Shown: one piece after another, positions 10,322 through 48,877 of the stretch | Position numbering within the stretch: position 1 is the first letter of the stretch | Layout: every line of letters begins with the position of its first letter | Source: Phycisphaerales bacterium UBA2421 | Lineage (GTDB): Bacteria; Planctomycetota; Phycisphaerae; Tepidisphaerales; Tepidisphaeraceae | Assembly: GCA_002343075.1 (NCBI GenBank) | Contig: DDRH01000014.1 | Location: 48,625 to 101,567 of the forward strand | Direction: 5' to 3' | DNA: 52,943 nucleotides | Made by a program: the position numbers and the translations under genes | Notes under the pieces: generated by a model | Seen by the model: only the letters and a program-made list of their open reading frames with translations | The model's database searches: none | What the model was told of the DNA's origin: nothing

Positions 10322-11107
10322 TTAGAATTCGTCGTCGGCTTTCTGAAGATAGACGAAGAAGCACATGCGTTCTTCCCCACCGAGCATGCCGCGTAGGCTG
10401 AAGAGCTTGAAGAACCACGCGCGATCTCGCTCGGAGGGCGAGTCGCCGGGCGCGGATGCCTCGCCGACGATCTCCGAAGGCTCGACATTCATGATGAAGC
10501 TCAAATGCAGGATATCCATCTCGTCGGCTGCCTGCGTTGAGAGCACGCTGACCGACGATTTCCTTACTAACTCTCGTAGATATCGCTCAGACATGTTGAT
10601 CGTGACCGCATCGAGCGCATCGAGAAAATCGGTGGTGGCGGCATCCTGCTTCCACCCGTGCGACTGGCGCTCTTCCTCACGATACTGCTTGAGCGCGGCA
10701 TCGAAATGCGCCTGCAATCGTTCGTAAAACTGCTCCACCTCTGCCCCGGCGAGCCAACGGACGATCATCACCTCACCCGGGCGGCAGTGAATATGGTAAT
10801 CATTGGTCCCCACTCCTTCCCCGTCGCAACAGGAGAGCATTGCCAGCACCTGTGCGGCCGAGTCGGGCTTGAGCAGCGGGCTTTCGGGCGACTTGGCCTT
10901 CTCCAGCCTGCCGATGGTTCGCTGAATGTTCCGGGCAAGCTCAGCATCCAACCCCGGCCGGAGGGACGCGTCAAACTTACGAACCCCCTCCAGCACCGCA
11001 CACAGTTCGGCATGCATGCGAAATTCATCAGCCTTCTCCGCGGCGCGCTGTTTGGGTGATTGCGCCTTTTCGGTCGGGGCATCCTCTTCGTTGGGTTCAT
11101 CGAACAT
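10322..11107 (-). CDS. Conserved-looking hypothetical protein
   Basis: 261 aa, ATG at 11107. I do not recognise the family. The first 30 residues are acidic and charged, followed by a mixed alpha/beta region. No signal peptide or membrane segment is visible, so the protein should be cytosolic. A central stretch around YHIHCRPGEVMIVRW and the C-terminal WFFKLFSLRGMLGGEE look like ordered core elements. It is divergent from rlmN (97 nt between starts) and lies upstream of, and co-directional with, the giant surface protein, but the 420-bp gap argues against one operon. Codon use matches the neighbours and there is no competing frame, so it is probably a real gene. Confidence 0.65.
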   Translation of the reverse strand: MFDEPNEEDAPTEKAQSPKQRAAEKADEFRMHAELCAVLEGVRKFDASLRPGLDAELARNIQRTIGRLEKAKSPESPLLKPDSAAQVLAMLSCCDGEGVGTNDYHIHCRPGEVMIVRWLAGAEVEQFYERLQAHFDAALKQYREEERQSHGWKQDAATTDFLDALDAVTINMSERYLRELVRKSSVSVLSTQAADEMDILHLSFIMNVEPSEIVGEASAPGDSPSERDRAWFFKLFSLRGMLGGEERMCFFVYLQKADDEF

Positions 11108-21090: not shown

Positions 21091-22509
21091 TCAGAATCGG
21101 ATTTTGATCACCCGCGCGTCGATGCCACCCGGCCCCGTCGGACATGCCACGCGCAGCCCGGTTTCGTCCTGCTTCCACAACACGCTTTCGTTCGTTCCGA
21201 GCCACTCCACCTGCTTGATGCCACGCTGGGCCAGACGAAGCGTCGTGCCCAGCGATCGAATCACCACTTCCCCGCTAGGCGCGGCGAGACAAATCGCATA
21301 AAGCGCGTTCTGACCGTGCGTAGTAAAACGAATATCGGCTGATGTGTAGGACACGCGTTTTGCGTCAGTAAAATGCCCTTCAGGCACAACGGTCGGTCCT
21401 TCTCCGAAGACCCTCCACGGCCGGGTGCCGTAGATCGCTTCGCCGTTTGTTTTCAGCCATGCACCGATCGCTTCCAGGATCGCCACTTGCTCGTCGGGAA
21501 TCGACCCATCCGCCCGTGGACCGATGTTCAGCAGCAGTGTGCCATTCTTGCTCACGATGTCACATAAATCGCCAATGAGCAAATCTGGTGACTTATACGT
21601 TTCACCCTCAATATGGCACCAACTTTTCATGCCAACGGACGTATCGCTCTGCCAGAAGAAGGGCTGAATATCCCCCAACTGTCCGCGCTCCACATCCGGA
21701 ACTGCCGCACCGGGTGCGAACATGTGATTCTTGTAGTTGATCGCCACCGGCAACCCCCACGAAGCGGCGCGGTTGTAGTAGTGCGCGGCGAAGTAGCGCA
21801 AGTACGGACTTAACGGCGGGCGCTCAGCCCATGTGTCAAAATAAAACAACTGCGGCTGATAGTTGTCAACCAACTCGCACAATCGGGCCAGGTAATCTTC
21901 CTTAAAGTGTTTCGAGGGGGTCTCCGATTGCTGCTTCGCAGGCCCGTAGAACTCTTCGAACGCAGCATCGTTCACATCCGAATCAAACTCGCGCCCCCCA
22001 TTCATAAACCACCAGTGTTCCGCGCGGTGATTCGATACACCAAAAACAACCCCCCGTCGTCGCGCCGCCGCCGCGATCTCCCCGACAACATCGCGCCGCG
22101 GGCCCATGTTGCGGGCGTTCCACGGGTTGAACTCCGTGTCGTACATCGCGAACCCGTCGTGATGCTCGGCTACCGGTACAACATACTTCGCGCCCGCTCG
22201 CACAAACAAATCCATCCATGCGTCGGCGTCGAACTTGTCGGCCTTGAACAACGGAACGAAGTCCTTGTAGCCAAATTTGTTCTGCGGCCCCCAGGTTTTC
22301 ACATGATGCTCGAAAGCCGGGTCGCCCTTGATGTACATCTTGCGCGAATACCACTCGTCCCCGAACGCCGGCACGCTGTAAGGCCCCCAGTGAATGAAGA
22401 TTCCGAACTTGGCATTCTGATACCATTGCGGCACGCGAAAAGCCTCCAGCGAATGCCATTCGGGAATGAAAGGGCCGTCGGCGATTTTGAATTCGGGGGT
22501 TTCGTACAT
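21091..22509 (-). CDS. GH29 alpha-L-fucosidase
   Basis: 472 aa. The GH29 fold is marked by KFGIFIHWGPYSVP (residues 34-47), the fucose-binding HHDGF motif (116-120), WNARNMGPRRD (130-140) and LFYFDTW, whose Asp225 occupies the catalytic nucleophile position. LLLNIGPRADGSIP near residue 330 is the usual end of the barrel, and a C-terminal beta-sandwich follows. The enzyme should remove alpha-L-fucose from glycans by a retaining mechanism. No signal peptide is visible, so it probably works in the cytoplasm on imported oligosaccharides. Its start is 7 nt after the stop of the co-directional alpha/beta hydrolase, giving a two-gene leftward operon behind the LacI-type operator at 23764. Confidence 0.9.
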   Translation of the reverse strand: MYETPEFKIADGPFIPEWHSLEAFRVPQWYQNAKFGIFIHWGPYSVPAFGDEWYSRKMYIKGDPAFEHHVKTWGPQNKFGYKDFVPLFKADKFDADAWMDLFVRAGAKYVVPVAEHHDGFAMYDTEFNPWNARNMGPRRDVVGEIAAAARRRGVVFGVSNHRAEHWWFMNGGREFDSDVNDAAFEEFYGPAKQQSETPSKHFKEDYLARLCELVDNYQPQLFYFDTWAERPPLSPYLRYFAAHYYNRAASWGLPVAINYKNHMFAPGAAVPDVERGQLGDIQPFFWQSDTSVGMKSWCHIEGETYKSPDLLIGDLCDIVSKNGTLLLNIGPRADGSIPDEQVAILEAIGAWLKTNGEAIYGTRPWRVFGEGPTVVPEGHFTDAKRVSYTSADIRFTTHGQNALYAICLAAPSGEVVIRSLGTTLRLAQRGIKQVEWLGTNESVLWKQDETGLRVACPTGPGGIDARVIKIRF

Positions 22510-22516
22510 GGGTGCG

Positions 22517-23725
22517 TCACTTGCTGATCAAATGAGAACGGAGAAACTCATAAATTTCACGAAGCCGGGCCGGATCGAGCGTCACTGTGTGCCCCCTGCC
22601 GTCGCGATCCTCTCTGTAGACATGCTCGATTTCTTTCACGTCGAGCCACTTGGCAAACTTCGCCAGCCCATCGCGGTACTCCGCTGATTCGGTGTCGCTT
22701 GTGTTGAGAAACATCGGGCTAGCGCGATCCGTCAGATATGCCATCGCTCCGTGTTCGCGCCATCGCGAGCCGTTACCATGCAATGGCCCCCAGGCTTTCT
22801 CAAACCGCGGCAACATCGGATCGTCAGGCAGCAGATCGAGGTAATCATATCGATTGCCGTGAATCAACGCCGCATCCACTTCGCCAAGCCCCGCGAGCAT
22901 CGCCGAGAACGGCCCGCCGCGGCTGAAGCCCACGGCAGCGATCTTTCCGGTCAGAGGTAGCTCATCCTTCAATGATCGCAACTTCTCAACGGCATTCACC
23001 GCGCGTAAGAGTGACGCAGGCATCGGATCGTCCAGCCCCTTATACGGCGGCGCAACAGGATGATCGACCATCGCACTTGCAAATCCGGCAAACGCCGCCC
23101 CTTCTATCAGGGTGTCTCGACAAAACAGCAACGAGAAACTACTCATTCGGTTCACGTTGTCGCAAGTAATCTCCATCACCGCAGCGACTGGCCTCAACGG
23201 GTTTGACGGATAAATCACATCCATGCCCAGCACGCGCTCGCCGTCGCGCGCGAACTCGATGTCGCGCCGCAAGGTGAAGCCTTCAGGAATGATGAACAAC
23301 CGGTTGCCATCGATGGGCTGCTCGAGAAAAAGCGTGCGCGCCTTGCTGTCGGCAAGATCGCGACGGAGCTTCAAAAGGTCTTGATTGATCCCCGGCGAGA
23401 TAGCCGCCGGGTCGTGGGCATAATCTACGATAATCAGCAAACACCCCTCGGCACGAAGGCGGCCAAGAATCTGTTCATCCGAATCCCGCCCAACGCGCTC
23501 CATGTTCAGATGTTTCAGGTAAACAACCGTTGGCAATGGGGAAGCATGGTGACCAGGGACATCTGGCAGAATCAGCTCGACACGAAGTGGCTTCTCCGCG
23601 GTGACGCTCTCCCAATTCAGTACCTGCGCGTCCTGCGCTGGGATTTGCGCACGCACACAGCCGTCGTAAGCACCCATTACGACCGCAGCCATGAGAATGA
23701 CCTTGAACTCGACTAGCCGAAGCAT
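22517..23725 (-). CDS. Secreted alpha/beta-hydrolase-fold protein
   Basis: 402 aa from ATG at 23725. The signal peptide (about residues 1-26) has a basic start, a hydrophobic core FKVILMAAVVMGAY and cleavage near VRA-Q. The frame is open further upstream, but that extension lacks sense. The nucleophile elbow is GFSRGG with Ser268; GKIAAVGFSRGG is the standard strand-elbow-helix of the fold, and the late HTVTLDP may supply the His. It could be an esterase that removes acetyl, methyl or other esters from a glycan, or a lactonase; the sequence does not decide. It heads a leftward operon with the GH29 fucosidase and is divergent from the GH106-like gene, with a LacI-type operator between them. 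Confidence 0.72.
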   Translation of the reverse strand: MLRLVEFKVILMAAVVMGAYDGCVRAQIPAQDAQVLNWESVTAEKPLRVELILPDVPGHHASPLPTVVYLKHLNMERVGRDSDEQILGRLRAEGCLLIIVDYAHDPAAISPGINQDLLKLRRDLADSKARTLFLEQPIDGNRLFIIPEGFTLRRDIEFARDGERVLGMDVIYPSNPLRPVAAVMEITCDNVNRMSSFSLLFCRDTLIEGAAFAGFASAMVDHPVAPPYKGLDDPMPASLLRAVNAVEKLRSLKDELPLTGKIAAVGFSRGGPFSAMLAGLGEVDAALIHGNRYDYLDLLPDDPMLPRFEKAWGPLHGNGSRWREHGAMAYLTDRASPMFLNTSDTESAEYRDGLAKFAKWLDVKEIEHVYREDRDGRGHTVTLDPARLREIYEFLRSHLISK

Positions 23726-23763
23726 CCTCAACCATTCTAACGAAACGCATGGTGCGTGAAGCG

Positions 23764-23777
23764 TGTAAACGCTTGCA
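23764..23777. promoter_or_regulatory. LacI/GalR-family operator
   Basis: TGTAAACGCTTGCA is a near-perfect palindrome around a central CG; its halves TGTAAACG and TGCAAGCG differ at two positions. It matches the general LacI/GalR/CcpA operator pattern TGNAANCGNTNNCA at every fixed base. It lies between two divergent sugar-catabolism genes (starts 23725 and about 23819). A second imperfect palindrome, ACGCA-TGG-TGCGT, is at 23745-23757. No LacI-family regulator is in the window. Confidence 0.6.
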
Positions 23778-23818
23778 GAAATGGTTGCCGTATTGTGGCG
23801 TGGAGCATCGCCTCCGAT

Positions 23819-26800
23819 ATGCTTGCGCACATGGCAGCGGCGCGGCGGAAATGGGAGCTATATCCTCGGAGTCATTCAACCCGGCTCGACCGCGGGCTCT
23901 TTCGCTTACCAACCTCCGAATATCGCGGTACGCCGTTCTGGTCGTGGAACACGCGCCTGAACTTTTCGCAACTCAGCCGCCAGATTGACCATCTTCAGAA
24001 AATGGGCTTCGGCGGCGTACACATCCACGCGCGCACCGGGCTGGCAACTGAATACCTCGGTCGAGATTTCATGTCGCTCGTCAAGCAGTGTCACGCCAGG
24101 CTCAAACGGCGCGGAATGCTCACATGGCTCTACGACGAAGACCGGTGGCCGAGTGGGTTTGCCGGCGGGCTTGTCTCTTCCGACGTGCGATTTCGCGAGA
24201 AAACGCTGTTCTGGACGCAGAACCAGGATGCGTCAACAGGCGAACTCCTCGGCCGCTACATTGTCACGCTCCGCGAAGGCCGACTGGTCGCGTTTGAGCG
24301 ACTGGCAATCCGAGACCTGCCCCCCAAAGGCACCTGGTACGCCTACCTGCACACCGCCAAGCCCGAATCGTGGTTTAATCACCAGACCTACATCGACACA
24401 TTCAACCCCGCCGCAGTGGCCCGTTTCATCGAAATCACGCACGAACGCTACCGCGCGTGCCTTGGTAGCTCGTTTGGCACAACTGTGCCAGCAATCTTCA
24501 CCGATGAGCCCCACTTCACCAAGAAGCAAACTCTTGCCGTGGCAAGCGCGCCGCAAGGGGTGGTGTTGCCGTTTAGCGATCTGTTTTGCGCCACATTTGA
24601 GAAGCGGTTCCGGCACGACCTTCTGGACAGTCTGCCCGAGCTATTCTGGGATCGCGCCGATGCCCGCCCGTCTCTCACTCGATACCAATATCACGAGCAC
24701 ACCGCAGAACTTTTTGCATCAAGTTTTGGCGACACCATCGCGCGCTGGTGTGCCAGGAATCGTCTTGCCCTCACCGGTCACATGCTCAGTGAGGCAACGC
24801 TCTTTGGACAAACCCGCGCCGTGGGCGAAGCGATGCGCGGGTTGCGATCGTTCCAGCTTCCTGGCATCGATATGCTGGAAGACAAGATTGAACTGACCAC
24901 CGCTAAGCAGGCGCAGAGCGTGGCGAGACAGAATGGCCGGCCGGGTGTCGTGAGCGAACTCTACGGCGTAACAAACTGGGATTTTGATTTCGCCGGCCAC
25001 AAGCGACAGGGTGATTGGCAGGCGGCGCTCGGGGTGACGGTGCGCGTGCCACACCTTGCGTGGGTCAGCATGGCCGGAGAGAGCAAGCGAGACTACCCCG
25101 CAGCTATCGGATATCAGTCGCCATGGTATCGGGAGTATAAGGTCATCGAAGACCACTTCGCGCGCGTCGCGGTGGCGATGACACGCGGGCGGCCGGTCGT
25201 GCGAGTCGCCGTAATTCACCCCATCGAGAGCTTCTGGCTTCACTGGGGCCCCGCCGACGACAATTGCGATGAGTGGGCGCGCCGGGAAGCTGAGTTCAAA
25301 GACCTGACCCACTGGCTCACCTTCGGCGGAATCGATTTTGACTTCGTAAGTGAATCATCGCTGGCCCCTCGCGGGGGTGTGCATCGCCGTGGAGCGGGGA
25401 AGGACGGGCTTCGAGTGGGCAAGATGGCTTACGACGCAGTGATCGTCCCTGGGTGTCAGACAATTCGCACAGCCACGCTCAATCGCCTGAAGCAGTTTCA
25501 AAGGTTGGGAGGCACCATCATCTTCGCCGGCACTATTCCTTCCCTGGTCGATGCCCGGCCGTCTGCCGAACCCGCTGCCATCGCAGCAAAATGTCGCAGG
25601 GTATCTTTCGATGAATCCTCCATTCTCGCCGCAGTCGCTCCTTTTCGTGAGCTTCGCATTGCGCTCGCCGACGGTGCTCCCACCGATAGCATCGCGCATC
25701 AACTCCGCCATGATGGCACAGCGCGATATCTCTTCCTGTGCAACACCCGTCGGCGGGAGGATGTGGGTGACGTCGCCATTACAGTGAACGGTCGATGGCA
25801 GGTCGAAGAATTCAACACGTTCACCGGGATGATCTCGTCGATGACGGCGGCGATCTCGGGCGAACAGACTGTCATCCCGTGGCGATGCCTTGCGCACGGT
25901 CATCTTTTGCTCAGGCTCACGCCGCGGACGCGTCAGAGCAACGATCAATTGGCGAAGACGGCCGCCGTCACGCGCGCAGAGCCAAACCTCTTTGCCAGAC
26001 CTCTCCCCGCGCGGACCAGAGTCATTCTCAGCGAACCCAATGTCCTGCTGCTCGATCAGGCCGAATGGAAACTCGACGGCGAAAGAAAGTGGCGTCAAAA
26101 AGAAGAAATCCTGCGACTGGACAACCTCGTGCGCCAACACGTGGGCCTCCCCAGCCGCGGCGGGCGAAATGCGCAGCCGTGGGTCGATACCGCGCCCGAT
26201 CCAGTCAAGGGCCTGCTGCACCTTCGATTCGCAATCGATTGCAAGGTTGCCGTCACTGCGCCGCAACTGGCGATGGAAAACCCGGCAGACGCAACCCTCA
26301 CGCTCAATGGACGGCGCGTTGCAACCAAGCCCGTCGGCTGGTGGGTGGATGAGGCGATCCGGACGGTCTCACTACCCAGTCTGAAGCCCGGCGCACACAC
26401 GCTCGAAATCTGCATCCCGATGCGCCGGCGGACCAATGTCGAATGGTGCTATCTGCTGGGCAGCTTCGGGGTGCGGGTCAAGGGTCGGCGCGCTACGATC
26501 ATTGAGGCACCCAAGACGCTTAAGTTCGGCGATTGGACACACCAGGGCCTTCCGTTCTACGCCGGGAATGTGACATACGAGATTCCGATTCGTGGCCAGG
26601 GCCGAGCGATGCGGTTGCGCGCCGCTCGCTTCAGCAATCCGCTTCTGACAGTAGCGATTGATGAGAAACGACTAGGCCCGGTGGCATTTGCGCCACATGA
26701 AATCGAACTCGGCAAGCTCAAGGGGACGCACATGCTCAGTCTGACCGCATTTGGCAACCGCCACAACGCGTTCGGCCCGCTGCACCACACCAAGCGCGAC

Positions 26801-26914
26801 CTCACGTGGGTCGGCCCGGCCGCGTGGCGCAGTTCGGGAGAATGGTGGTCGTATGATTATCATTTCAAGCCGATCGGCATCCTCGAACCGCCGTTGCTGT
26901 TGGAAGCAGCTTGA
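23819..26914 (+). CDS. GH106-like glycoside hydrolase (alpha-L-rhamnosidase-related)
   Basis: About 1031 aa from ATG at 23819; a GTG at 23756 is rejected because it would place the LacI-type operator inside the gene. Counting from 23819, the N-terminal PFWSWN (39-44), GFGGVHIHARTGL and WLYDEDRWPSGFAGG (103-117) form the barrel signature of GH106-related enzymes. IFTDEPHF further on carries a candidate catalytic Glu. A long central TIM-barrel plus beta-sandwich domains follows, and the C-terminal 250 residues look like a jelly-roll carbohydrate domain (WRSSGEWWSYDYHFKPIGI near the end). No signal peptide is visible. Likely substrates are rhamnosides or related glycosides of pectic material; the family is broad, so substrate is inference. 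It is the first gene of the rightward cluster leading to the RuBisCO-like protein. Confidence 0.72.
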   Translation: MLAHMAAARRKWELYPRSHSTRLDRGLFRLPTSEYRGTPFWSWNTRLNFSQLSRQIDHLQKMGFGGVHIHARTGLATEYLGRDFMSLVKQCHARLKRRGMLTWLYDEDRWPSGFAGGLVSSDVRFREKTLFWTQNQDASTGELLGRYIVTLREGRLVAFERLAIRDLPPKGTWYAYLHTAKPESWFNHQTYIDTFNPAAVARFIEITHERYRACLGSSFGTTVPAIFTDEPHFTKKQTLAVASAPQGVVLPFSDLFCATFEKRFRHDLLDSLPELFWDRADARPSLTRYQYHEHTAELFASSFGDTIARWCARNRLALTGHMLSEATLFGQTRAVGEAMRGLRSFQLPGIDMLEDKIELTTAKQAQSVARQNGRPGVVSELYGVTNWDFDFAGHKRQGDWQAALGVTVRVPHLAWVSMAGESKRDYPAAIGYQSPWYREYKVIEDHFARVAVAMTRGRPVVRVAVIHPIESFWLHWGPADDNCDEWARREAEFKDLTHWLTFGGIDFDFVSESSLAPRGGVHRRGAGKDGLRVGKMAYDAVIVPGCQTIRTATLNRLKQFQRLGGTIIFAGTIPSLVDARPSAEPAAIAAKCRRVSFDESSILAAVAPFRELRIALADGAPTDSIAHQLRHDGTARYLFLCNTRRREDVGDVAITVNGRWQVEEFNTFTGMISSMTAAISGEQTVIPWRCLAHGHLLLRLTPRTRQSNDQLAKTAAVTRAEPNLFARPLPARTRVILSEPNVLLLDQAEWKLDGERKWRQKEEILRLDNLVRQHVGLPSRGGRNAQPWVDTAPDPVKGLLHLRFAIDCKVAVTAPQLAMENPADATLTLNGRRVATKPVGWWVDEAIRTVSLPSLKPGAHTLEICIPMRRRTNVEWCYLLGSFGVRVKGRRATIIEAPKTLKFGDWTHQGLPFYAGNVTYEIPIRGQGRAMRLRAARFSNPLLTVAIDEKRLGPVAFAPHEIELGKLKGTHMLSLTAFGNRHNAFGPLHHTKRDLTWVGPAAWRSSGEWWSYDYHFKPIGILEPPLLLEAA

Positions 26915-27035: not shown

Positions 27036-28289
27036 ATGTCCGCAGAACGAATCCAAGCTGTCTATCGAATCGAGACGCCTCTGCCCGTAGAACGCGCCGC
27101 GGCGGTTCTGGCGGGCGAGCAGTCGTCGGGAACTTTCGTCGAAGTGCCTGGCGAAACCGACGATCTCAGGCGCAGATACGGCGCGAGAGTCGAACTCATC
27201 AACCCGCTGGAGCCTGCCGCCGCCGCCAGCCTGCCCGGGTGCCGCGGTGGCGTCCCCGGCGGCCTGTTCAACCGTGCTCAGATCACGGTGAGTTGGCCGG
27301 TCGAAAACATCGGCGTCAACCTCCCCACACTACTCGCGACCGTTCAGGGTAACCTCTACGAATTGTCGCAGCTTTCCGGCATCAAGCTGTTGTCGATTGC
27401 ACTTCCCGACTCGCTCGCGCGCCACTTTCGCGGGCCGGCTTTTGGTGCAGAAGGCTCACGCGCGCTCTGCGGTGTTGTGAAAGGGCCGATGATTGGCACC
27501 ATCATCAAGCCGAGCATCGGTCTATCACCCGATCAGACCGCCGAGTTGGTGCGGACGCTCGTTGAAGCCGGAATTGACTTCATCAAGGATGATGAACTGC
27601 TGGCCAACCCGCCTCACTCACCCTTCAAACAGCGCGTCGATGCGGTGATGCAAGTAATCAACGAGCACGCTCATCGCACCGGGCGGAAGGTGATGGTAGC
27701 GTTCAACCTCACCGATGAGTTCGACGCCATGCAACGCAATTACGATCATCTTCTCGCCGCCGGAGGCACTTGCGCGATGCTGAGTGTCAACCATGTCGGC
27801 CTGTCCGCGACCAAGGCGATCTGTGACCGCGGCCAACTGGCCATTCACGCACACCGCAACGGATTTGGCATGATGAACCGGCATCCGATGCTCGGCATGG
27901 AGTTCCCCGCGTATCAGACCATTTGGCGGCTGGCGGGAGTCGATCAATTGCACGTCAACGGCATCGCCAACAAGTTCTGGGAACCTGATGATCACGTCGT
28001 GCGTTCCATCGAAGCATGCCTCGCCCCAATGAACGGCCTCAAACGCCTGCTGCCCGTCATCAGCAGCGGGCAGACCGGGCTCCAGGCACCCGAAACCTAC
28101 CGCCGCACGCAGACAATCGAAGTACTCTATCAGGCCGGCGGAGGCATCATGGCCCACCCTCTCGGCCCTGCCGCCGGCGTCGCAGCACTCAGACAGGCAT
28201 GGCAGGCAGCGGTCAGCGGCATCACTCTGGACGAGCACGCGCGGGAACACGTCGAGCTGCGCGGGCAGTTGAAGAAGTTTGGAAAGTAG
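27036..28289 (+). CDS. RuBisCO-like protein (form IV), probably a sugar-acid-phosphate decarboxylase
   Basis: 417 aa with the full RuBisCO large-subunit layout. Equivalents of key residues are visible: GN at 105-106 (RuBisCO N123), TIIKPSIGLS with Lys158 (K175), DFIKDDE with Lys184 (the carbamylated K201), Asp186 and Glu187 (metal ligands), HAHR with His273 (H294), loop-6 Lys313 (K334), and AGGGIMAHPLGP for the phosphate loop. The Lys at RuBisCO position 177 is Ser160 here, so true CO2-fixing RuBisCO activity is unlikely. The next gene is a DUF1537 kinase, the pairing known from apiose catabolism, where the kinase makes 3-oxo-isoapionate 4-phosphate and the RuBisCO-like protein decarboxylates it (OiaX) or transcarboxylates/hydrolyses it (OiaT). 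That assignment is inference from context. Confidence 0.85.
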   Translation: MSAERIQAVYRIETPLPVERAAAVLAGEQSSGTFVEVPGETDDLRRRYGARVELINPLEPAAAASLPGCRGGVPGGLFNRAQITVSWPVENIGVNLPTLLATVQGNLYELSQLSGIKLLSIALPDSLARHFRGPAFGAEGSRALCGVVKGPMIGTIIKPSIGLSPDQTAELVRTLVEAGIDFIKDDELLANPPHSPFKQRVDAVMQVINEHAHRTGRKVMVAFNLTDEFDAMQRNYDHLLAAGGTCAMLSVNHVGLSATKAICDRGQLAIHAHRNGFGMMNRHPMLGMEFPAYQTIWRLAGVDQLHVNGIANKFWEPDDHVVRSIEACLAPMNGLKRLLPVISSGQTGLQAPETYRRTQTIEVLYQAGGGIMAHPLGPAAGVAALRQAWQAAVSGITLDEHAREHVELRGQLKKFGK

Positions 28290-28298
28290 CCGGCTCAG

Positions 28299-29618
28299 AT
28301 GAACGACTTGCTCATCAGCTTCTACGGCGACGATTTTACAGGCTCCACCGACGCCGCTGAATCGCTCTGCCTGGCCGGGGTGAAGACCGTGCTGTTCACG
28401 GCCCCGCCCACGCCGTCCCAATTAGGGCGATTTCCCTGCCTGCGCGCGTTTGGCGTGGCGGGAGTCACCCGTGCTCAACCGCCCGCCGTTATGGAGCAAA
28501 CGCTTCGTCCCGCATTTGAGGCCATGAGGCAAGCCGGCGCGCCAATCGTTCACTACAAGGTTTGCTCCACATTCGATTCTTCGCCTGCCGTCGGCAGCAT
28601 CGGGAAGGCAATTGACGTCGGCAGCGACGTGTTTGCACAGCATTGCGTGCCGGTGGTGGTAGGTGCGCCGTCTCTGGGTCGATACTGTGCCTTTGGAAAC
28701 TTGTTTGCACGGTCGGGCACTGGCTCGGAACCGATTCGGCTCGACCGGCACCCCTCGATGAGCCGTCACCCCATTACGCCGATGACCGAAGCAGATCTGC
28801 GGCTGCATCTTGCAAAGCAAACGCAAAAGTCCATCGGACTGATCGATGCGACGCAGCTCTCGCTGGGCGAATGCCAGCTCTTTGATATCTACGATGCACA
28901 ATCCATCGAGAACGAAGTGCTGCTAATCGACCTTATGCAGCGGGAACAGCTCCGGTCAGTGGGAGCGCTTTTGCATCGCGGGGTTGGGAGCGGCGAAGCT
29001 CATTTTGTAGTTGGCTCATCGGGTGTCGGCGAGTCGCTCTGCACCTGCTGGCGTGAGAAAAATCTGGTCCGCGATGACGATGCGCTACAGCCCGCCGGCG
29101 CAGCGCCGGGGCCGATCATCGCGATTTGCGGCAGCTGTTCCCCCATCACCGCGGGGCAGATCGAACATGCTTCGCGTGGTGGCTTTACGGAAGTGAAGGT
29201 TGACGTTGGTTCAAGCATCAGGGCAATGAATGCGATCACACCCGCAACTTCCGCGCTGCGCGACGGGAAAAGCGTCGTACTTCACACCGCCGGGGCGACA
29301 CTGCCCGACCATCGGCTTGCCCCTGCCGCAGCCAGTGGCATCGGGCCGAGGCTGGCGCGCGTGCTTCGAGAACTGCTTCAGGCAACTTCCGTCCGTCGGG
29401 TCGTCATTGCAGGCGGCGATACTTCGGGCCAGATCGCAAATGCACTCGAGATTGAGAGTATGGAGATGATCGCCACCCTCGCCCGCGGCGCGCCGCTGAT
29501 GCGCGTCACCGCTCCCGGCTCGCCGGCCGATGCCGTCGAAATGGTTTTCAAAGGCGGACAGATCGGCCCTCCCGACTTCTTCAGTTCCGTGCGCGACGGA
29601 ATCAGGGAGACGACATGA
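28299..29618 (+). CDS. Four-carbon acid sugar kinase family (DUF1537) kinase
   Basis: 439 aa. The N-terminal domain opens with the family hallmark FYGDDFTGSTDAAES (residues 8-22). The C-terminal nucleotide-binding domain has VVIAGGDTSGQIANAL and RVTAPGSPADAVEMVFKGGQIG, also diagnostic. These cytosolic enzymes phosphorylate sugar acids such as threonate, erythronate or 3-oxo-isoapionate. The gene starts 9 nt after the RuBisCO-like protein stop, so the two are almost certainly co-transcribed. In apiose pathways the same pair acts in sequence (kinase OiaK, then RuBisCO-like protein). I assign kinase with confidence and the 3-oxo-isoapionate substrate as inference; no gene symbol is given for that reason. 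Confidence 0.87.
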   Translation: MNDLLISFYGDDFTGSTDAAESLCLAGVKTVLFTAPPTPSQLGRFPCLRAFGVAGVTRAQPPAVMEQTLRPAFEAMRQAGAPIVHYKVCSTFDSSPAVGSIGKAIDVGSDVFAQHCVPVVVGAPSLGRYCAFGNLFARSGTGSEPIRLDRHPSMSRHPITPMTEADLRLHLAKQTQKSIGLIDATQLSLGECQLFDIYDAQSIENEVLLIDLMQREQLRSVGALLHRGVGSGEAHFVVGSSGVGESLCTCWREKNLVRDDDALQPAGAAPGPIIAICGSCSPITAGQIEHASRGGFTEVKVDVGSSIRAMNAITPATSALRDGKSVVLHTAGATLPDHRLAPAAASGIGPRLARVLRELLQATSVRRVVIAGGDTSGQIANALEIESMEMIATLARGAPLMRVTAPGSPADAVEMVFKGGQIGPPDFFSSVRDGIRETT

Positions 29619-29733
29619 CTCAATCGCCCGAGGAAGCGCGCCTACGGACCGCTGTCACACGATGACGCCGGACTTATCCACACTCCGTCGCACCTGAACC
29701 TGTGCAGGAGAACGCGTACAGAAGAAGGATATC

Positions 29734-30399
29734 ATGATGTCAAAGACCATCGCACTCATTCACACTTCCCCATCGATGATTCCTGTTTTTAAGGCGCTCG
29801 CCGATGAGCATCTCAAGGGTCGCACCATCTTCAACATGGTTGATGAAAGTCTGCTCTGCGACATCATCAGAGACGGAAGGTGCCCGCCGAACACCGCGAA
29901 ACGACTGGTAGGCCATGTTCTCGCCGCCGAGAGCGCGGGGGCAGAAGTGATCCTTGTTTCGTGTTCGAGCATGGGCCGGGCGGTCGAAGCGTCGCGCGCG
30001 CTCTGCGGCGTTCCCGTCATGCGTGTCGATGAGCCGATGGCGGAATGCGCTATTGCAACGGGAAAGCGAATCGGCGTCATCGCGACGCTGCCCAGCACGC
30101 TCGAACCAACGGTGGCCCTGATAGAGTCCAAGGCGGCTGGCGCAGGGCAAAAGGTGACGATCCGCTCGCAGGTGGTCGAAGGCGCGTTCGCGGCGGTCAT
30201 CGGTGGCGACGGCGGCAGGCACGATGCGCTCGTGGCCGCGGCGCTCAAAACGATGGCGAGTGAGGTCGATGTCATCGTGCTGGCCCAGGCGTCCATGGCG
30301 CGAGTAGTTGACGCACTCGCCCCGACGGACAAGCCCGTGCCGATTCTCTCAAGCCCGAAACTGGCGATCGAACACCTGGCTTCAATGACCAATCAGTAG
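29734..30399 (+). CDS. Asp/Glu/hydantoin-racemase-superfamily protein with a single catalytic Cys
   Basis: 221 aa of the aspartate/glutamate/hydantoin racemase superfamily. The first catalytic motif is VSCSSMG with Cys77. At the second position, where two-base racemases have LGCAGM, this protein has LAQASM (Gln185), so the second Cys is absent. One-Cys members of the fold include arylmalonate decarboxylase and other non-racemase enzymes, so classical racemase activity is doubtful. The start at 29734 is preceded by AAGAAGGA, a good ribosome binding site. Within the cluster it lies 115 bp after the kinase and 38 bp before the GH2 gene. A role as isomerase, epimerase or decarboxylase on a sugar-acid intermediate is possible, but this is inference. 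Confidence 0.75.
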   Translation: MMSKTIALIHTSPSMIPVFKALADEHLKGRTIFNMVDESLLCDIIRDGRCPPNTAKRLVGHVLAAESAGAEVILVSCSSMGRAVEASRALCGVPVMRVDEPMAECAIATGKRIGVIATLPSTLEPTVALIESKAAGAGQKVTIRSQVVEGAFAAVIGGDGGRHDALVAAALKTMASEVDVIVLAQASMARVVDALAPTDKPVPILSSPKLAIEHLASMTNQ

Positions 30400-30437: not shown

Positions 30438-32933
30438 ATGCAGCGCATCACCACCATTCTCAACAGCAACTGGCGATTCCATCGAGGCGAGTGCCCCACC
30501 GCGGCCGCGGCGGAGTTTGATGACACCCACTGGCAACGCATCGGCCTGCCACATTGCTTTGATGCGCCATACTTCCGCACACCCGAGTTCTATGTCGGCG
30601 AGGGTTGGTACCGGCGGGAGGTCGATCTAGGGCAGAACCTCCCGACGGATCGACGCGTGACAATGGAGTTTGACGGCGTATTTCAACGCTGCGATGTCTT
30701 CGTTGATGGCACGCACGCTGGCTCGCATCAGGGAGGCTACACGGGTTTTTCGATCGACATCACGCCAGCCATTAATCGACCAACACCGATTATCGCGATT
30801 CGCGTTGATAATCGATGGAATCCACAGCTTGCCCCGCGCGCCGGCGAGCACATCTTCTCCGGCGGGATTTACCGTGATGTGCGACTGGTCATCACGCATC
30901 CAATACACATCGCGTGGTGCGGCCACGCCATCGCGACGCCAGAAGTAGCGTTCGACCGGGCGAGCGTCGCGATCGAGACGGCTATCGTCAACTCGACCGA
31001 TACATGCACTGATTGCCTCGTGACAACCGAAATCTTCGATCCGCACGGCCGCTGCGTGGGCTTGGTGCGCGACCGACGCTCAGTTCCGCCGGGCAAAGTG
31101 CGGTGTGTGGTGAGGCAATCGACGGATGTCGCCGATCCGATGCTCTGGTGCCCGGCGCACCCATATCTGTATCGCGCACGAACGACCGTGAGTGTCGATG
31201 AGATCGCCGTCGACATGATCGAAGAAACGTTCGGCATTCGAACCATCCGCTGGACCTCTGACGCGGGCTTCTTTCTCAATGGCGAGCACCTTTACCTGCG
31301 CGGCGCGAATGTGCATCAGGATCACGCCGGCTGGGGCATCGGCATTACGCGCGCCGCTTGCGAGCGCGACGTGCGCCTGATGAAGGAAGCCGGGTTCAAT
31401 TTCATCCGCGGGGCACATTATCCGCATCATCCGGCGTTTGCAGATGCGTGCGATCGGCTCGGCATCCTTTTCTGGAGCGAGGCCACGTTTTGGGGAAAGG
31501 GCGGCTTTGGGCCGGAAGGGTTCTGGAATGCCAGTGCTTACCCGGTCAATCAGCATGATGAAGCCGGATTTGAGCAGTCTTGTGTTGCGCAGCTTGAGGA
31601 GATGATTCGCATCAATCGCAATCACCCGAGCATCATCTGCTGGAGCATGACCAATGAGGCATTCTTTACATACCACCTCGACCGGGCCAAGGCGTTGATG
31701 GAGCAAATGGTGTCGGTCAGCCGAACACTCGACCCCACCCGCCCCGCGGCCATCGGCGGAGCTCAGCGGGGGGGGATCGATCGCATTGGCGACGTTGCGG
31801 GCTACAATGGCGATGGCGCGCGGCTGTTCATGAACCCCGGCGTGCCGAACATGGTCAGCGAGTACGGCGCAATTGGGAAACCTCCAGACGCATTTGATCC
31901 CTTCTTTGGCGACCTCCAACCCGAGAAGTTTCCTTGGCGCGCCGGCGAGGCCATCTGGTGCGGCTGCGACTATGGAACCATTGCAGGCAAGCAGGGGTTG
32001 AAGGGCATCGTCACGCACGCGCGCGTTCCGAAGCGAAGCTGGCACTGGTATCGACAGCAAAACCTCGCAATCGCTCCACCCCCGGTGCCAGCGCAACATC
32101 GGCCGGGCATGCAACTCCGGCTGGATCTGGCGGCCGACAAACGATTCATCGAAGGCACGGAGGCGACGGACGATGCGCAGATCACCGTGACAGTTCAGGA
32201 TGTATCGGGCCACGACATCGACTTCTCTCCGGCGGTCACACTGACGATCGAATCCGGCCCTGGGGAGTTTCCAACCGGTCGGTCGATTACATTCGATCCG
32301 ACAACCGACATTGCAATCTTCCACGGGCAGGCGGCGGTCGCCCTTCGGTCTTACCACGCCGGCCGAACTCTCATCCGAGCCACCGCCGAGGGGTGTAGAG
32401 ATGCGGCCATTGAAATTGAAACGCTCGGCGGGCCGCCATTTGACGAGAGCGTGACGCCCCTGAATGACGACCGGCCATACTTCCCGCCGGTCGAATCGGA
32501 AGCGGCTCGGGCTGCGCTTCGTAACGCGGTCAACATCGCGCTCAATCGTCCGAGCCGGGCCAGCAGCGAGTTACCCGATTCGCCTGCCCGCCTGGCCAAT
32601 GATGGCAACAAAATCAGCGCCTGGCACGCCGCCGGGGATGACTCGCGGCCGGAATGGACGCTTGACCTCGAAGGCTTTTACGATCTGGCGAGCATTCGTC
32701 TGCTCTTTCCTGCCAGTGGAAACTGGCGATTCATCATTGATACGTCGCTCGATCGCACCGACTGGCGGCCGGCAATCAACCGGCGGGAATCGATCAACGA
32801 AGCCGCGGCGCGTACAGATGTGTTCGATCCGGGCTTGTCGGCAAGGTACCTGCGCCTGACATTCACCAAGGTGCCCGTCGATCGTGCGGGTCTGGCCGAG
32901 GTGGAGGTGTACGGGATCCTAACTCGCCAATGA
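30438..32933 (+). CDS. GH2-family glycoside hydrolase with C-terminal discoidin/CBM32-like domain
   Basis: 831 aa. Residues about 1-150 form the sugar-binding jelly roll, about 160-270 the immunoglobulin-like domain, and about 270-560 the TIM barrel. The acid/base is Glu407 in CWSMTNEAFF and the nucleophile is probably Glu475 in MVSEYGA. FNFIRGAHYPHHPAFADACD is the typical GH2 barrel helix-loop. A further beta-sandwich (about 570-680) and an F5/8-type C (discoidin/CBM32-like) domain (about 690-831, ending in LRLTFTKVPVDRAGLAEVEVYG) complete the protein. GH2 includes beta-galactosidases, glucuronidases, mannosidases and arabinosidases, and sequence alone does not choose. No signal peptide is visible, although discoidin domains usually occur on exported enzymes. 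It belongs to the RuBisCO-like-protein cluster. Confidence 0.86.
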   Translation: MQRITTILNSNWRFHRGECPTAAAAEFDDTHWQRIGLPHCFDAPYFRTPEFYVGEGWYRREVDLGQNLPTDRRVTMEFDGVFQRCDVFVDGTHAGSHQGGYTGFSIDITPAINRPTPIIAIRVDNRWNPQLAPRAGEHIFSGGIYRDVRLVITHPIHIAWCGHAIATPEVAFDRASVAIETAIVNSTDTCTDCLVTTEIFDPHGRCVGLVRDRRSVPPGKVRCVVRQSTDVADPMLWCPAHPYLYRARTTVSVDEIAVDMIEETFGIRTIRWTSDAGFFLNGEHLYLRGANVHQDHAGWGIGITRAACERDVRLMKEAGFNFIRGAHYPHHPAFADACDRLGILFWSEATFWGKGGFGPEGFWNASAYPVNQHDEAGFEQSCVAQLEEMIRINRNHPSIICWSMTNEAFFTYHLDRAKALMEQMVSVSRTLDPTRPAAIGGAQRGGIDRIGDVAGYNGDGARLFMNPGVPNMVSEYGAIGKPPDAFDPFFGDLQPEKFPWRAGEAIWCGCDYGTIAGKQGLKGIVTHARVPKRSWHWYRQQNLAIAPPPVPAQHRPGMQLRLDLAADKRFIEGTEATDDAQITVTVQDVSGHDIDFSPAVTLTIESGPGEFPTGRSITFDPTTDIAIFHGQAAVALRSYHAGRTLIRATAEGCRDAAIEIETLGGPPFDESVTPLNDDRPYFPPVESEAARAALRNAVNIALNRPSRASSELPDSPARLANDGNKISAWHAAGDDSRPEWTLDLEGFYDLASIRLLFPASGNWRFIIDTSLDRTDWRPAINRRESINEAAARTDVFDPGLSARYLRLTFTKVPVDRAGLAEVEVYGILTRQ

Positions 32934-33019: not shown

Positions 33020-34105
33020 ATGTCAAAACTGAAACTTGGTGTGCTCGGGCTGGGCGAAGGCCGCTCAATCATCTCTGCGGCGATGAACAGCGACCTTTGG
33101 GAACTGGCGCAACTGTGCGACCTGAATGAAACACTTTGCCAGCAGCGGTGCGACGAGTTTAAGTTCCCGCGTTACACCACTTCGCTCGATGAAATGCTCA
33201 CCGATCGCTCGATCGACGCAATCGGCATCTACACCCCCGACCCCCTCCACGCCGAGCATATCATTTCCTGCCTGCGTGCGGGCAAACATGTGATCTGCAC
33301 CAAGCCCCTGATCGACAACCTCGCAGACGCACCGCGCGTCATCGAAGCACAACGCGAGGCGGGAAAATGCGTTTTCGTCGGCCAGAGCACGCGATTTTTT
33401 GAATCCATGCAGCGGCAGCGCGCCGACTACGATGCGGGCAAGCACGGCGAGGTCTACTCCGTCGAGGCCTACTACAATGCCGACAACAGGTGGTTTCTTC
33501 AACGAGGATGGGCCCGCACGGGCGGACTGAAGTGGCTGTACGGCGGGCTTTCGCATCCGGTGGATCTGGTGCGCTGGTATCTACCCGACATCACCGAAGT
33601 CATGGGTTACGGCATGCTCACGACCAATGGTCAGGAACTTGGGTTGACCCATCCCGACAGCATGCATTTCATTGCCACGTCGCGGGGGGGCAAGATTGCG
33701 CGCATCAGCGGGCACTATTCCGGGCCGTACGGCAACAGTGATCGCGACAGCGGGATGAGCTGTGTGCTGCGCGGAACCCTTGGAACAAGTCAGGCGGACT
33801 ACTCCGACTTGCGTTACAGCACACACTTCGCCGGACAGGGACATGTGCAGTACCGGATGGACCACCGCAGCAGCTATTACTTCCGCTTCGGTGGCAAGAG
33901 TCACCACGCGGGGGAGTATCAGAATTACATCGAGCATTTCGCCCGCTGCATCATCGACGGCTCGACACCGAAACCCGACATCAGCGAAGGCATCGTGACG
34001 GTCGCGGTGATGGCGGCGATGGAAAGAAGTCTCGAAACCGCGAAGCCCGTCAAAATCCGAACCATTCTCGACGAACACGGCTTGTCCGACTTCGCCGCAA
34101 ACTGA
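33020..34105 (+). CDS. Gfo/Idh/MocA-family NAD(P)-dependent sugar dehydrogenase
   Basis: 361 aa. The N-terminal Rossmann dinucleotide-binding segment is LGVLGLGEGRSIISAAM (residues 6-22). The conserved EKP-type motif appears as HVICTKPLIDN, with the catalytic Lys retained. The C-terminal alpha/beta domain has GGLSHPVDLVRWYLPD with the conserved Gly-His region that shapes the active site. These cytosolic enzymes oxidise or reduce sugars and sugar acids. One known member of the family is a D-apiose dehydrogenase, which would fit the neighbouring RuBisCO-like protein and DUF1537 kinase, but the family is very broad. It is the last gene of the rightward cluster, 86 bp after the GH2 gene, and converges on a GNAT gene. 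Confidence 0.85.
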   Translation: MSKLKLGVLGLGEGRSIISAAMNSDLWELAQLCDLNETLCQQRCDEFKFPRYTTSLDEMLTDRSIDAIGIYTPDPLHAEHIISCLRAGKHVICTKPLIDNLADAPRVIEAQREAGKCVFVGQSTRFFESMQRQRADYDAGKHGEVYSVEAYYNADNRWFLQRGWARTGGLKWLYGGLSHPVDLVRWYLPDITEVMGYGMLTTNGQELGLTHPDSMHFIATSRGGKIARISGHYSGPYGNSDRDSGMSCVLRGTLGTSQADYSDLRYSTHFAGQGHVQYRMDHRSSYYFRFGGKSHHAGEYQNYIEHFARCIIDGSTPKPDISEGIVTVAVMAAMERSLETAKPVKIRTILDEHGLSDFAAN

Positions 34106-34850: not shown

Positions 34851-35780
34851 TCAGTCTTTCGAGAAATAATCCAACGACTGATACGCCCCAGTCTTTTCCT
34901 TGACCAGTTGCATCAGAATGTCATTCGCCAACCGAGACGCGCCCAGGCGGAAGAGGTCGGGGGTCATCCAGTCTTCGCCGAGTGTTTCGCGCAGGACTAC
35001 CAGGTACTGAATTGCGATCTTTGCTGTCGCAATTCCCCCCGCGGGCTTCATACCGATCTTGCGGCCTGTGGCGTAGTAAAAGTCGCGAATCGCCTCCAGC
35101 ATGACCAGCGTCACTGGCAGCGTGGCCGCGGGCTGAACTTTTCCGGTACTGGTCTTGATAAAATCGGCACCGGCGTGCATTGCCAGATCACTGGCTCTGC
35201 GCACTTCATCGTAGCTTCCCAGTTCGCCGGTTTCGAGAATCACCTTCAGATGTGCCGCGCCGCACGCTTCCTTGCACGCGGCGATTTCGTCGAACACATA
35301 ACTGTAATCGCCCGCCAGAAACCGCCCGCGGGAGATAACCATGTCTATCTCATCAGCCCCCTGCTCGACGGCGTAACGCGTGTCATTCATCCGGTCGGCG
35401 ATGTCGTACTGCCCGGAAGGAAACCCCGTCGCCACCGCGGCGACGTGAATGCCTGTGCCCTTGAGCGCCTCTTTCGCAACCGCGGCAAGGGTTGGATAGA
35501 CGCAAATGGCTGCGACGTGCGGAACGCCTTCCATCGCATCATGCAGGTGGGCGGCTTTGTAGCAAAGCTGCCGAACCTTGCCGGGTGTGTCGGCACCTTC
35601 GAGCGTTGTGAGATCAATCATGCTCAACGCAAGTTTGAGCGCATGGACCTTGCTGGCTTTCTTGATGCTGCGCTTGGTCAGCCGGTCAATGCGCTCTTCC
35701 ACACCCACCTTATCGATCGTGGGACAGCGAGACAGATCCGGATGCGTTCGGGTGACGGAGTTCATGTCAAACAGCATCAT
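34851..35780 (-). CDS. deoC: Deoxyribose-phosphate aldolase
   Basis: 309 aa class I aldolase that splits 2-deoxyribose 5-phosphate into glyceraldehyde 3-phosphate and acetaldehyde in nucleoside breakdown. The Schiff-base Lys lies in DFIKTSTGK. AAICVYPTLAAVAKEAL, VATGFPSGQYD and EIDMVISRGRFLAGDY are all standard DeoC signatures, and GMKPAGGIATAKIA supplies the second active-site Lys and phosphate loop. The N-terminus is about 50 residues longer than in short bacterial forms, as in the longer DeoC subgroup. It sits beside the sugar-catabolism cluster but on the opposite strand, so it is probably not part of that operon. Confidence 0.93.
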   Translation of the reverse strand: MMLFDMNSVTRTHPDLSRCPTIDKVGVEERIDRLTKRSIKKASKVHALKLALSMIDLTTLEGADTPGKVRQLCYKAAHLHDAMEGVPHVAAICVYPTLAAVAKEALKGTGIHVAAVATGFPSGQYDIADRMNDTRYAVEQGADEIDMVISRGRFLAGDYSYVFDEIAACKEACGAAHLKVILETGELGSYDEVRRASDLAMHAGADFIKTSTGKVQPAATLPVTLVMLEAIRDFYYATGRKIGMKPAGGIATAKIAIQYLVVLRETLGEDWMTPDLFRLGASRLANDILMQLVKEKTGAYQSLDYFSKD

Positions 35781-35872: not shown

Positions 35873-36943
35873 CTAACTCGCCTGCCGCGGAGGCGATGGC
35901 TGATCTCCCGCCGTCGCGTCGGCAAGCAGTTCGTTCATCACATCGCGCATCGTCACGATCCCCTCGGTTGAACCATACTCCGTTACGAGAAACACCATCT
36001 CAGTCTTGTACTCGTGAAATGACTTCAACAACTGATCGAGCGTGACCATCTGCGGCACGAACGCCGGCGCATCGGCCAGCAGGCGCAACATCGCAGTTTC
36101 CCCCCCGGCATCGGCGGCGGTGAGGAACTCCTTTACCTTCACAACGCCGATGCAGTGATCAAAGTCGCCGTCGCAGAGCGGAAAGCGCGTGTGCAGCATC
36201 TGCTCGACAATTGCCCGGTTCTCCTGCATCGACTTGTTTACATCGATCCACTGCACGCGCGAGCGGTGAACCATCAGCTCTTCGGCCTTGCGCCGCCCGA
36301 GGGTCAGGCCGGTGAGAATGACCGACCGCTCACGATCAGAAAGCACGCCGGATGCTGCCGCGCGGTCGGCGAGCATCCTAAGCTCATCGACGCTGACCTG
36401 ATCGGCCTCCAACTGATCCACGTCCCCAATTCCCAGCGGCCTGATGACCAGATTGGCCAGCGCCTTCATCACCCAGACCAGCGGGCGAAGGCACGACTGT
36501 ATCAGGATGATCGGCCGAGCAGTGAACTGCGCCGCCGCCGTCGCGAAACGCAGGGTTAGTGCCTTGGGCAGAAGTTCGCTCAGTACAACCGTGAGCAGCG
36601 TCACAATGACAAATCCCAGCGCGGTGCTCACGACTGTCATGATCGTGGGCGAAAGCGCGACAAGCGGTGAGAACAGCTTCTGCAGCACCGCGGTCATCGC
36701 CGGTTCACCGATCCAGCCGAGCATCAGGTTGGTCATGGTGATGCAAATCTGGATCGTGCCGATCGAGCTCGCCGGGTTGGATTTCAGTCGTTCGATCGCT
36801 GTAACCGTACTGAACTTTCGGCGGGCGCGCAGCGATTCGATTTGAGATGGGCGAATGGCAATCAGAGCATACTCGGCGGCGACGAAGAACGCGTTCATCG
36901 CAATCAGCAAGGGCACAAGCAGAAGTTGTTGGAACAAGGTCAT
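35873..36943 (-). CDS. CNNM/CorC-type membrane protein with CBS domains (hemolysin-like), lacking C-terminal CorC/HlyC domain
   Basis: 356 aa. The N-terminal CNNM (DUF21) membrane domain has about four hydrophobic segments (residues 5-24, 60-80, 88-112, 120-145), with SSIGTIQICITMTNLMLGW as a hallmark. A CBS pair follows (about 200-335, with VHRSRVQWIDVNKSM and FLVTEYGSTEGIVTMRDVM). Family members act in magnesium/cobalt efflux or metal homeostasis in the inner membrane. Most are 420-450 aa and end in a CorC/HlyC transporter-associated domain; here the protein stops about 20 residues after the second CBS. The stop does not interrupt an evident continuing frame, so this looks like a natural short form. 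It lies 33 nt downstream of the exo/endonuclease-fold gene, same strand. Confidence 0.82.
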   Translation of the reverse strand: MTLFQQLLLVPLLIAMNAFFVAAEYALIAIRPSQIESLRARRKFSTVTAIERLKSNPASSIGTIQICITMTNLMLGWIGEPAMTAVLQKLFSPLVALSPTIMTVVSTALGFVIVTLLTVVLSELLPKALTLRFATAAAQFTARPIILIQSCLRPLVWVMKALANLVIRPLGIGDVDQLEADQVSVDELRMLADRAAASGVLSDRERSVILTGLTLGRRKAEELMVHRSRVQWIDVNKSMQENRAIVEQMLHTRFPLCDGDFDHCIGVVKVKEFLTAADAGGETAMLRLLADAPAFVPQMVTLDQLLKSFHEYKTEMVFLVTEYGSTEGIVTMRDVMNELLADATAGDQPSPPRQAS

Positions 36944-36976
36944 CGCAATAAACGTTGCCGGGAAAGGCGCCGACAG

Positions 36977-48747: not shown

Positions 48748-48750
48748 TTC

Positions 48751-48858: not shown

Positions 48859-48877
48859 CTAACCCCGCGGTGCAATC

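Follow-up and report, generated by a model that had tools for sequence, protein, structure and literature searches.

A conserved set of RuBisCO-like protein, DUF1537 kinase and racemase-fold genes that probably breaks down a branched acid sugar of rhamnogalacturonan II

Introduction

What does a RuBisCO-like protein (RLP) do when its gene stands among glycosidase genes? The question is raised by a stretch of 52,943 nucleotides from Phycisphaerales bacterium UBA2421 (GenBank assembly GCA_002343075.1, contig DDRH01000014.1, positions 48,625 to 101,567, forward strand; hereafter the window), in which an RLP gene is followed by genes for a DUF1537 kinase and for a protein of the aspartate/glutamate (Asp/Glu) racemase fold. 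An earlier reading of the DNA letters (the original prediction) had proposed that the locus removes sugars from a pectic glycan of the rhamnogalacturonan II (RG-II) type and catabolizes D-apiose. Here we report that the three genes form a conserved module in genomes that use RG-II. A rare branched acid sugar of RG-II is its probable substrate, with aceric acid a likelier candidate than apiose. RG-II, the pectin domain in which aceric acid was discovered, is highly conserved across plants (PMC12168206, in part). Our literature search, with most subscription papers outside its coverage, returned no paper linking aceric acid to an RLP or to an intracellular catabolic route.

Results

A conserved three-gene module

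The core of the locus consists of the following genes.

27036..28289, + strand: RLP, 417 amino acids (aa); Pfam PF00016 RuBisCO_large, 216 bits, 6e-64
28299..29618, + strand: DUF1537 / four-carbon acid sugar kinase, OiaK-like, 439 aa; PF07005 SBD_N 3e-50, PF17042 NBD_C 2e-25
29734..30399, + strand: Asp/Glu-racemase-fold protein, 221 aa; Pfam Asp_Glu_race (PF01177) 5e-20

The open reading frames (ORFs) named in the original prediction were recovered at or next to where it had placed them, with the same 9-nt gap between the RLP and kinase genes. We compared the locus with 80 related loci, the best of at least 539 confirmed relatives from a scan with one genome per species. ORFs of these loci and of window positions 19001 to 40000 were clustered, shadow ORFs being ignored by hand, and a locus was considered to have room for the kinase or racemase-fold gene if at least 2.2 kb lay downstream of the RLP gene, and for a BASS-type carrier if 3.7 kb did. 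Homologous-protein searches with the RLP and the racemase-fold protein gave at least 120 matches each, among the 8000 and 7999 best candidates, respectively.

The kinase gene was present in 76 of the 78 loci with room. The racemase-fold gene, which the original prediction had offered as a new step, was kept in 77 of 78 and is therefore a real part of the pathway, not a passer-by. All three genes are found in 76 loci (window included), and in 72 of them they are close together, co-directional and in the order RLP, kinase, racemase, which is therefore not a product of chance; the linkage that was to be sought in relatives is thus strongly confirmed. A gene for a BASS-type transporter, a family that carries organic anions and is not known to take neutral sugars, was found in 71 of the 75 loci with room for it, usually after the core genes. 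It is missing from the window, from the Phycisphaerae loci L003 and L009, and from L053.

The RLP and the kinase are distant relatives of the apionate enzymes

Among all NCBIfam models, the RLP was matched best by OiaX (3-oxo-isoapionate-4-phosphate decarboxylase, NF042437), at 492 bits, with the type III RuBisCO model at 224; its best PDB match was 3nwr (419 bits). The kinase matched OiaK (3-oxo-isoapionate kinase, NF042436) at 421 bits, followed by OtnK at 173. The kinship with OiaX and OiaK that had been proposed for the pair therefore stands, far above the next models. On these scores both proteins are nearest to the apionate enzymes, yet far under the family cut-offs, which are 700 bits in both cases. 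The cut-off of OiaX appears strict, since RLPs from three other operons of the apionate type also miss it (453 to 481 bits; 472 for L085).

Some RLPs act in methionine salvage (MtnW) or elsewhere in sulfur metabolism, and such a protein could stand beside glycosidase genes by chance. The MtnW models do match the window RLP weakly, at 118 bits (cut-off 514) and 167 bits (cut-off 409). These values are far from the 492 bits of OiaX, and the kinase and racemase-fold partners, as well as glycosidase neighbors, recur with the RLP in three phyla. Methionine salvage was rejected on the scores, and we regard it as extremely improbable.

We next built a quick tree of 101 RLPs by maximum likelihood, trimming the sequences from the window and the 80 related loci to their last 430 residues. 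The window RLP and those of the 80 loci formed a single clade of 81 rows (SH-aLRT 97), nearly all of them planctomycete, verrucomicrobial or from Bacteroidota. The RLPs nearest to that of the window are from Phycisphaerae, in line with the planctomycete origin that had been surmised. Four annotated OiaX proteins from rhizobial apionate operons formed a separate clade (support 100, branch 1.87) that leaves the window RLP outside, and RLPs of other apionate-type operons fell outside both clades. The original prediction had named a place in a non-apionate clade as a refutation, and by that rule the position of the RLP outside the OiaX clade weakens the apiose step. The branching order among the RLP groups is unsure, because 39 of the 98 inner branches were drawn open, and the tree label "apn without LerI/DerI" is our reading of operon content.

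The window RLP keeps the motifs KDDE, IIKPS and NKF, which we take to be the RuBisCO-type metal site (a lysine and two acids) and the catalytic lysines. The letters specific to the four OiaX rows (KDDEK, KPA, NGIRVKY, GSGQ) are absent and are replaced by KDDEL, KPS, NGIANKF and SSGQ, so that its active-site motifs are closer to those of RLPs from apionate operons with no LerI/DerI nearby than to OiaX. Apionate RLPs are of two kinds, which either decarboxylate 3-oxo-isoapionate-4-phosphate or transcarboxylate and hydrolyze it (PMC6302742, in part). We propose that the window RLP may likewise be a decarboxylase or a transcarboxylase/hydrolase, acting on a phosphorylated 2-carboxy-3-keto sugar acid. 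It is the single RuBisCO-superfamily match in its genome (4.47 Mb, 67 contigs, completeness 91%).

Further RLP and kinase pairs were also seen. In the operons L086, L089 and L106, the RLP and DUF1537 kinase genes are accompanied by those of a TRAP or KDG-type permease and of an SDR-type protein; the stretches examined gave no ApnO-like match, and the operons possibly serve yet another substrate. A planctomycete pair (57% and 43% identity; L100, contig C103 of genome G200) lies outside the 81-row clade, and its genome gave no aceric acid hydrolase match at 1e-100.

The racemase-fold protein has a single conserved cysteine

The racemase-fold protein scored 72.6 bits with PF01177, above the gathering cut-off of 31. 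Its residue C77 is invariant, and the position of the second cysteine of two-base racemases is taken by an invariant glutamine (Gln185); we take the two cysteines to be the catalytic residues of those enzymes, with C77 as one of them. Among the structure matches listed, most are amino acid, hydantoin or allantoin racemases, together with one maleate isomerase; the absence of arylmalonate decarboxylase from these matches has no bearing either way. We propose that the protein may act as an isomerase on a sugar acid.

The module is associated with RG-II and with an aceric acid hydrolase

Of the glycosidase clusters near the RLP, that of glycoside hydrolase family GH127 was seen most often (38 of 80 loci). 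In 20 of the 80 the GH127 gene lies directly upstream of the RLP gene, on the same strand, with a gap of less than 150 nt. The 33 GH127 proteins scanned (32 of the 38 and the copy of this genome) all matched the NCBIfam aceric acid hydrolase model (NF049879) at 1e-200 or below, a level that no other NCBIfam model reached. The GH127 protein of L015, for instance, scored 1209 bits (cut-off 950), and among PDB entries matched 5mqo at 885 bits, followed by 4qjy at 421 and the HypBA1-type 3wkw at 273. We take 5mqo to be BT1003. BT1003 is an aceric acid hydrolase (PMC10850190, in part) that takes part in the depolymerization of RG-II (PMC5698469, in part). Alpha-galacturonidase genes were found near the RLP in 9 of 80 loci, and the four that were scanned scored 1432 to 1548 bits (cut-off 1300).

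We then turned from loci to genomes. In a selection of 47 module-bearing genomes from the 80 loci, all had an aceric acid hydrolase match at 1e-200 or below, 38 of them above the cut-off and nine at 833 to 943 bits. In a sample of 280 genomes from the order of L015, the hydrolase was present in 34 of 35 genomes with an RLP and in 67 of 245 without (Fisher p 3e-16); in the lone RLP-bearing genome that lacks it, the RLP is more divergent (52%) than in any other. Eight of the 34 have the two genes side by side, with gaps of 12 to 56 nt. The alpha-galacturonidase, used as a control, gave the same picture (34 of 35 versus 76 of 245). Because the control equals the hydrolase, genome co-occurrence shows RG-II use and not aceric acid use in particular, and it was dropped as proof of the latter. 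The link to RG-II drawn in the original prediction is thereby supported.

In the genome of the window, the corresponding genes lie on a second contig, C15. It carries a GH127 gene (57743-59764; 834 bits to NF049879), an alpha-galacturonidase homologue (50592-53342; 1033 bits, cut-off 1300), the sole apiosidase-family gene of the genome (48111-49718), and GH28, GH2 and pectic acid lyase genes. Among Planctomycetota, the next group of hydrolase scores after these 834 bits is at 743, and then at 533 or less.

An RG-II or pectin sugar acid other than aceric acid (Dha, Kdo or a uronate-derived 3-keto acid), yielding a 2-hydroxy-3-oxo acid, would also suit these data in part. The strong tie to RG-II holds for any of its sugars, a BASS carrier would point to an organic anion, and the DUF1537 kinase family acts on several oxo acid sugars, to judge from the NCBIfam models. 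However, an RLP presumably requires a substrate of the 2-carboxy-3-keto type, only apiose and aceric acid are known to be branched among the sugars of RG-II, and the most frequent glycosidase neighbor is the aceric acid hydrolase. We consider such a substrate rather unlikely.

On a Croceibacterium plasmid (L083 and L110), RLP and kinase genes stand beside a GH127 gene of another type than the aceric acid one; elsewhere the plasmid also carries an MFS gene and a homologue (49%) of the racemase-fold protein. Croceibacterium was rejected as an independent case of the association, its GH127 scoring only 87 bits with the aceric acid hydrolase model.

The presumed entry into apiose catabolism is mostly missing

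For apiose to be the substrate, D-apiose would be oxidized by a Gfo/Idh/MocA (Gfo) dehydrogenase, opened to apionate, and converted to 3-oxo-isoapionate without the known ApnO, for instance by a dehydrogenase together with the racemase-fold protein, before the kinase and the RLP act. In known apionate catabolism, 3-oxo-isoapionate is made by the oxidoisomerase ApnO. The apionate enzymes, ApnO included, are listed in PMC11747546 (in part). Our query was the Rhizobium etli protein encoded after the RLP and kinase in rhizobial OiaX operons, with PGDH_C and weak KARI_N domains. We take it to be ApnO from its operon position and its domains; no NCBIfam model names the protein.

All three control searches found their target (the query's own gene, a second at 73% identity, and a third, from an archaeon, at 46%). 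The genome of the window gave no credible homologue (best E 0.004, 33% over 78 residues). Among the 47 module-bearing genomes, 43 gave nothing at E 0.001, two gave marginal matches (3e-4 and 4.5e-4, 26 to 30% over about 100 residues), and two, G406 and G395, gave real ones. Discounting the marginal matches, we regard an ApnO-like protein as credibly lacking in 45 of the 47. The apiose reading of the original prediction therefore fails at its entry step, both here and in these relatives. The ApnL model found nothing in this genome, but was likewise silent in every control genome.

The dehydrogenase fares no better. The original prediction had pointed out that a D-apiose dehydrogenase is a Gfo protein, yet when the Gfo protein of the window was compared with four dehydrogenases that apionate operons encode at the ApsD position, identity was only 20 to 26%, over 116 to 164 aa. 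Its cluster is found in 12 of 81 loci (window included), and a Gfo gene of either cluster found (14 or 20) in 22 of 81. Its homologues in L003 and L009 are 73 to 74% identical, that of L003 (74%) lying directly after the racemase gene.

Several facts speak for apiose nevertheless: OiaX and OiaK are the closest characterized families, RLPs with similar motifs sit in operons with ApnO-like and Gfo proteins and, in L085, an ApnL-like protein, this genome has an apiosidase-family gene, and two module-bearing genomes have a clear ApnO-like homologue. On the other hand, a homologue of that apiosidase was found in only 3 of 80 loci (tblastn at 1e-5, which divergent apiosidases could escape), and the carriers of the related loci are of a type not known to take neutral sugars. 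Moreover, near the apiosidase gene on C15 are genes for a protein resembling fucose isomerase (71% to L021), for an FGGY kinase (54%) and for the two halves of a split transketolase (72% and 64 to 80%), which together would be suited to apiose. Of the 80 related loci, 7 have the isomerase with both transketolase halves within about 10 kb of the module, and four of these have the FGGY kinase as well. Carter et al. reportedly described, in 2018, a non-oxidative apiose route made up of an isomerase, an FGGY kinase and a transketolase. If the C15 set is this route, the RLP module would be left for another sugar. Taken together, we hold apiose to be possible but unlikely as the substrate of the module.

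The C-terminal transketolase half (C15, about 36204-37267, inside L096) matches in two pieces that overlap on the query and lie about 110 bases apart, which suggests a frame change or an assembly indel.

Neighboring genes of the locus

The genes around the core are as follows.

30438..32933, + strand: GH2 glycosidase with F5/8 C domain, 831 aa, beta-galactosidase/beta-glucuronidase-like; Glyco_hydro_2_C 1e-32, NCBIfam and PDB matches
33020..34105, + strand: Gfo/Idh/MocA oxidoreductase, 361 aa; Pfam GFO_IDH_MocA 6e-21
23756..26914, + strand: large ORF, 1052 aa, possibly GH106-like, 121 nt upstream of the RLP gene
21091..22509, - strand: GH29 alpha-L-fucosidase, 472 aa, glycan context; PF01120 Alpha_L_fucos, 332 bits, 9e-99
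22517..23830, - strand: putative hydrolase-like protein, 437 aa, possible glycan context; GFSRGG motif (our reading)

The run from the RLP to the Gfo gene is co-directional, with gaps of 9, 115, 38 and 86 nt, and the GH29 and hydrolase-like genes diverge from it upstream. The glycosidase labels of the original prediction are firm for GH29 and GH2 and weak for the "GH106-like" ORF, which scored just 26 bits with the NCBIfam alpha-L-rhamnosidase model (cut-off 1300), matched nothing in Pfam at 0.001 or in the PDB at 0.01, and resembles a fragment at the end of L006 (52% over 85 aa). The GH29 protein is 51% identical to its homologue in Croceibacterium (L083). The hydrolase-like protein had no Pfam match and is 41% identical over 352 aa to one in the RLP locus L022. 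Since the closest GH2 proteins of the related loci are only about 30% identical, we did not count the GH2 gene as part of the conserved module; DeoC (34851-35780, - strand), a GNAT ORF, and the ORFs at 16470-18014 and 18038-19651 were excluded because they had no tblastn match at 1e-15 in the 80 loci. A scan for promoters found none (2.3 expected), and nine terminator-like sites were found (7.8 expected).

Farther away, the window contains flagellar genes (47044-50806), with a FlgK-like protein and flagellin, and a 1298-aa protein (6522-10418, - strand) with passenger-associated-transport repeats (PATR), possibly secreted and autotransporter-like.

Discussion

L-Aceric acid as the proposed substrate

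We suggest that the RLP, the kinase and the racemase-fold protein may form the catabolic core for a carboxylated branched sugar of RG-II, with L-aceric acid as the most likely one, a reading to which we give about an even chance. The case is built on operon adjacency with the hydrolase, on the near-absence of an ApnO-like protein, and on chemistry.

Several observations weigh against aceric acid. In this genome, the GH127 protein is below the model cut-off (834 versus 950 bits) and is encoded on another contig than the RLP, and a search of two contigs yielded no BASS gene. As sampled, 42 of the 80 loci, some of them truncated at contig ends, showed no GH127, and the GH127 beside the Croceibacterium RLP is not of the BT1003 type. 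Distant GH127 homologues have other substrates, and some are found in a carrageenan cluster (PMC5698469, in part), so that family membership alone is insufficient. The hydrolase also occurs without an RLP, not only in the 67 genomes of the order of L015 but also in four of five planctomycetes with a hydrolase of at least 743 bits (in a sample of 392 genomes), the exception being this genome, and the alpha-galacturonidase control tracks the RLP just as well. One of the two genomes with an ApnO-like protein is that of L009, a Phycisphaerae locus closely related to the window in the tree. Finally, no aldolase is among the clusters annotated as conserved, and, the racemase-fold gene aside, no isomerase is near-universal in the loci.

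A possible pathway

If L-aceric acid is the substrate, a BT1003-type GH127 would free it (3-C-carboxy-5-deoxy-L-xylose) from RG-II, and the cell would take it up, for which the relatives have the BASS carrier encoded last in the operon. An aldose-ketose isomerization, for which the racemase-fold protein is a candidate, would give CH2OH-CO-C(OH)(COOH)-CHOH-CH3, and the OiaK-like kinase would phosphorylate the primary hydroxyl of this keto form. This 2-ketose would be 3-oxo-isoapionate with one extra methyl, and an OiaK-like kinase and an RLP similar to OiaX or OiaT would need just a slightly larger pocket. The RLP would then act on a 2-carboxy-3-keto phosphate, a chemotype shared with the intermediate of the RuBisCO reaction. 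Decarboxylation would give a 5-deoxypentulose 1-phosphate, and its aldol cleavage dihydroxyacetone phosphate (DHAP) and acetaldehyde; transcarboxylation and hydrolysis, as for some apionate RLPs, would give 3-phosphoglycerate and lactate. The active-site letters and the lack of an aldolase among the annotated conserved clusters make us lean, no more, toward the latter. As a whole, the scheme of a one-cysteine racemase-fold aldose-ketose isomerase followed by a new RLP family with RuBisCO-like chemistry, ending in either pair of products, is speculative.

With a conserved three-gene core in three phyla, intracellular use of aceric acid becomes directly testable. If the proposal holds, the RuBisCO superfamily would gain a new substrate or reaction, and the Asp/Glu racemase fold a new role.

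Comparison with known systems

The module is most readily compared with four systems. In RG-II utilization by Bacteroides, exemplified by BT1003, sugar release is described, and an intracellular aceric acid pathway is not, in the parts of the sources available. Homologues of its hydrolase accompany the module in all 47 genomes of the selection and in this one, and alpha-galacturonidase homologues are present in 34 of the 35 RLP-bearing genomes of one order and in this one.

The non-oxidative apiose route, for which C15 has all four candidate genes, is not homologous to the RLP module and would act in parallel on apiose. Within the Asp/Glu racemase superfamily (PF01177), the protein studied here differs in the invariant glutamine at the second cysteine position and in a gene context of sugar acid breakdown; homologues from rhizobia that share the motif adjoin genes for FAD-dependent oxidoreductases.

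The closest parallel is the OiaK/OiaX branch of D-apiose (apionate) catabolism, reportedly also described by Carter et al. in 2018. There, too, an RLP gene is directly followed by a DUF1537 kinase gene, the homology to the window pair extends over the full length, and the chemistry proposed is alike, a beta-keto acid kinase being followed by an RLP. The window module differs in its separate RLP clade, its scores below the cut-offs, its racemase-fold partner, its usual BASS carrier, and the lack of an ApnO-like protein in most genomes tested. Furthermore, whereas the neighbors of the OiaK/OiaX branch are ApsD, ApnL and ABC genes, the commonest neighbor in the clade of the window is the GH127 aceric acid hydrolase.

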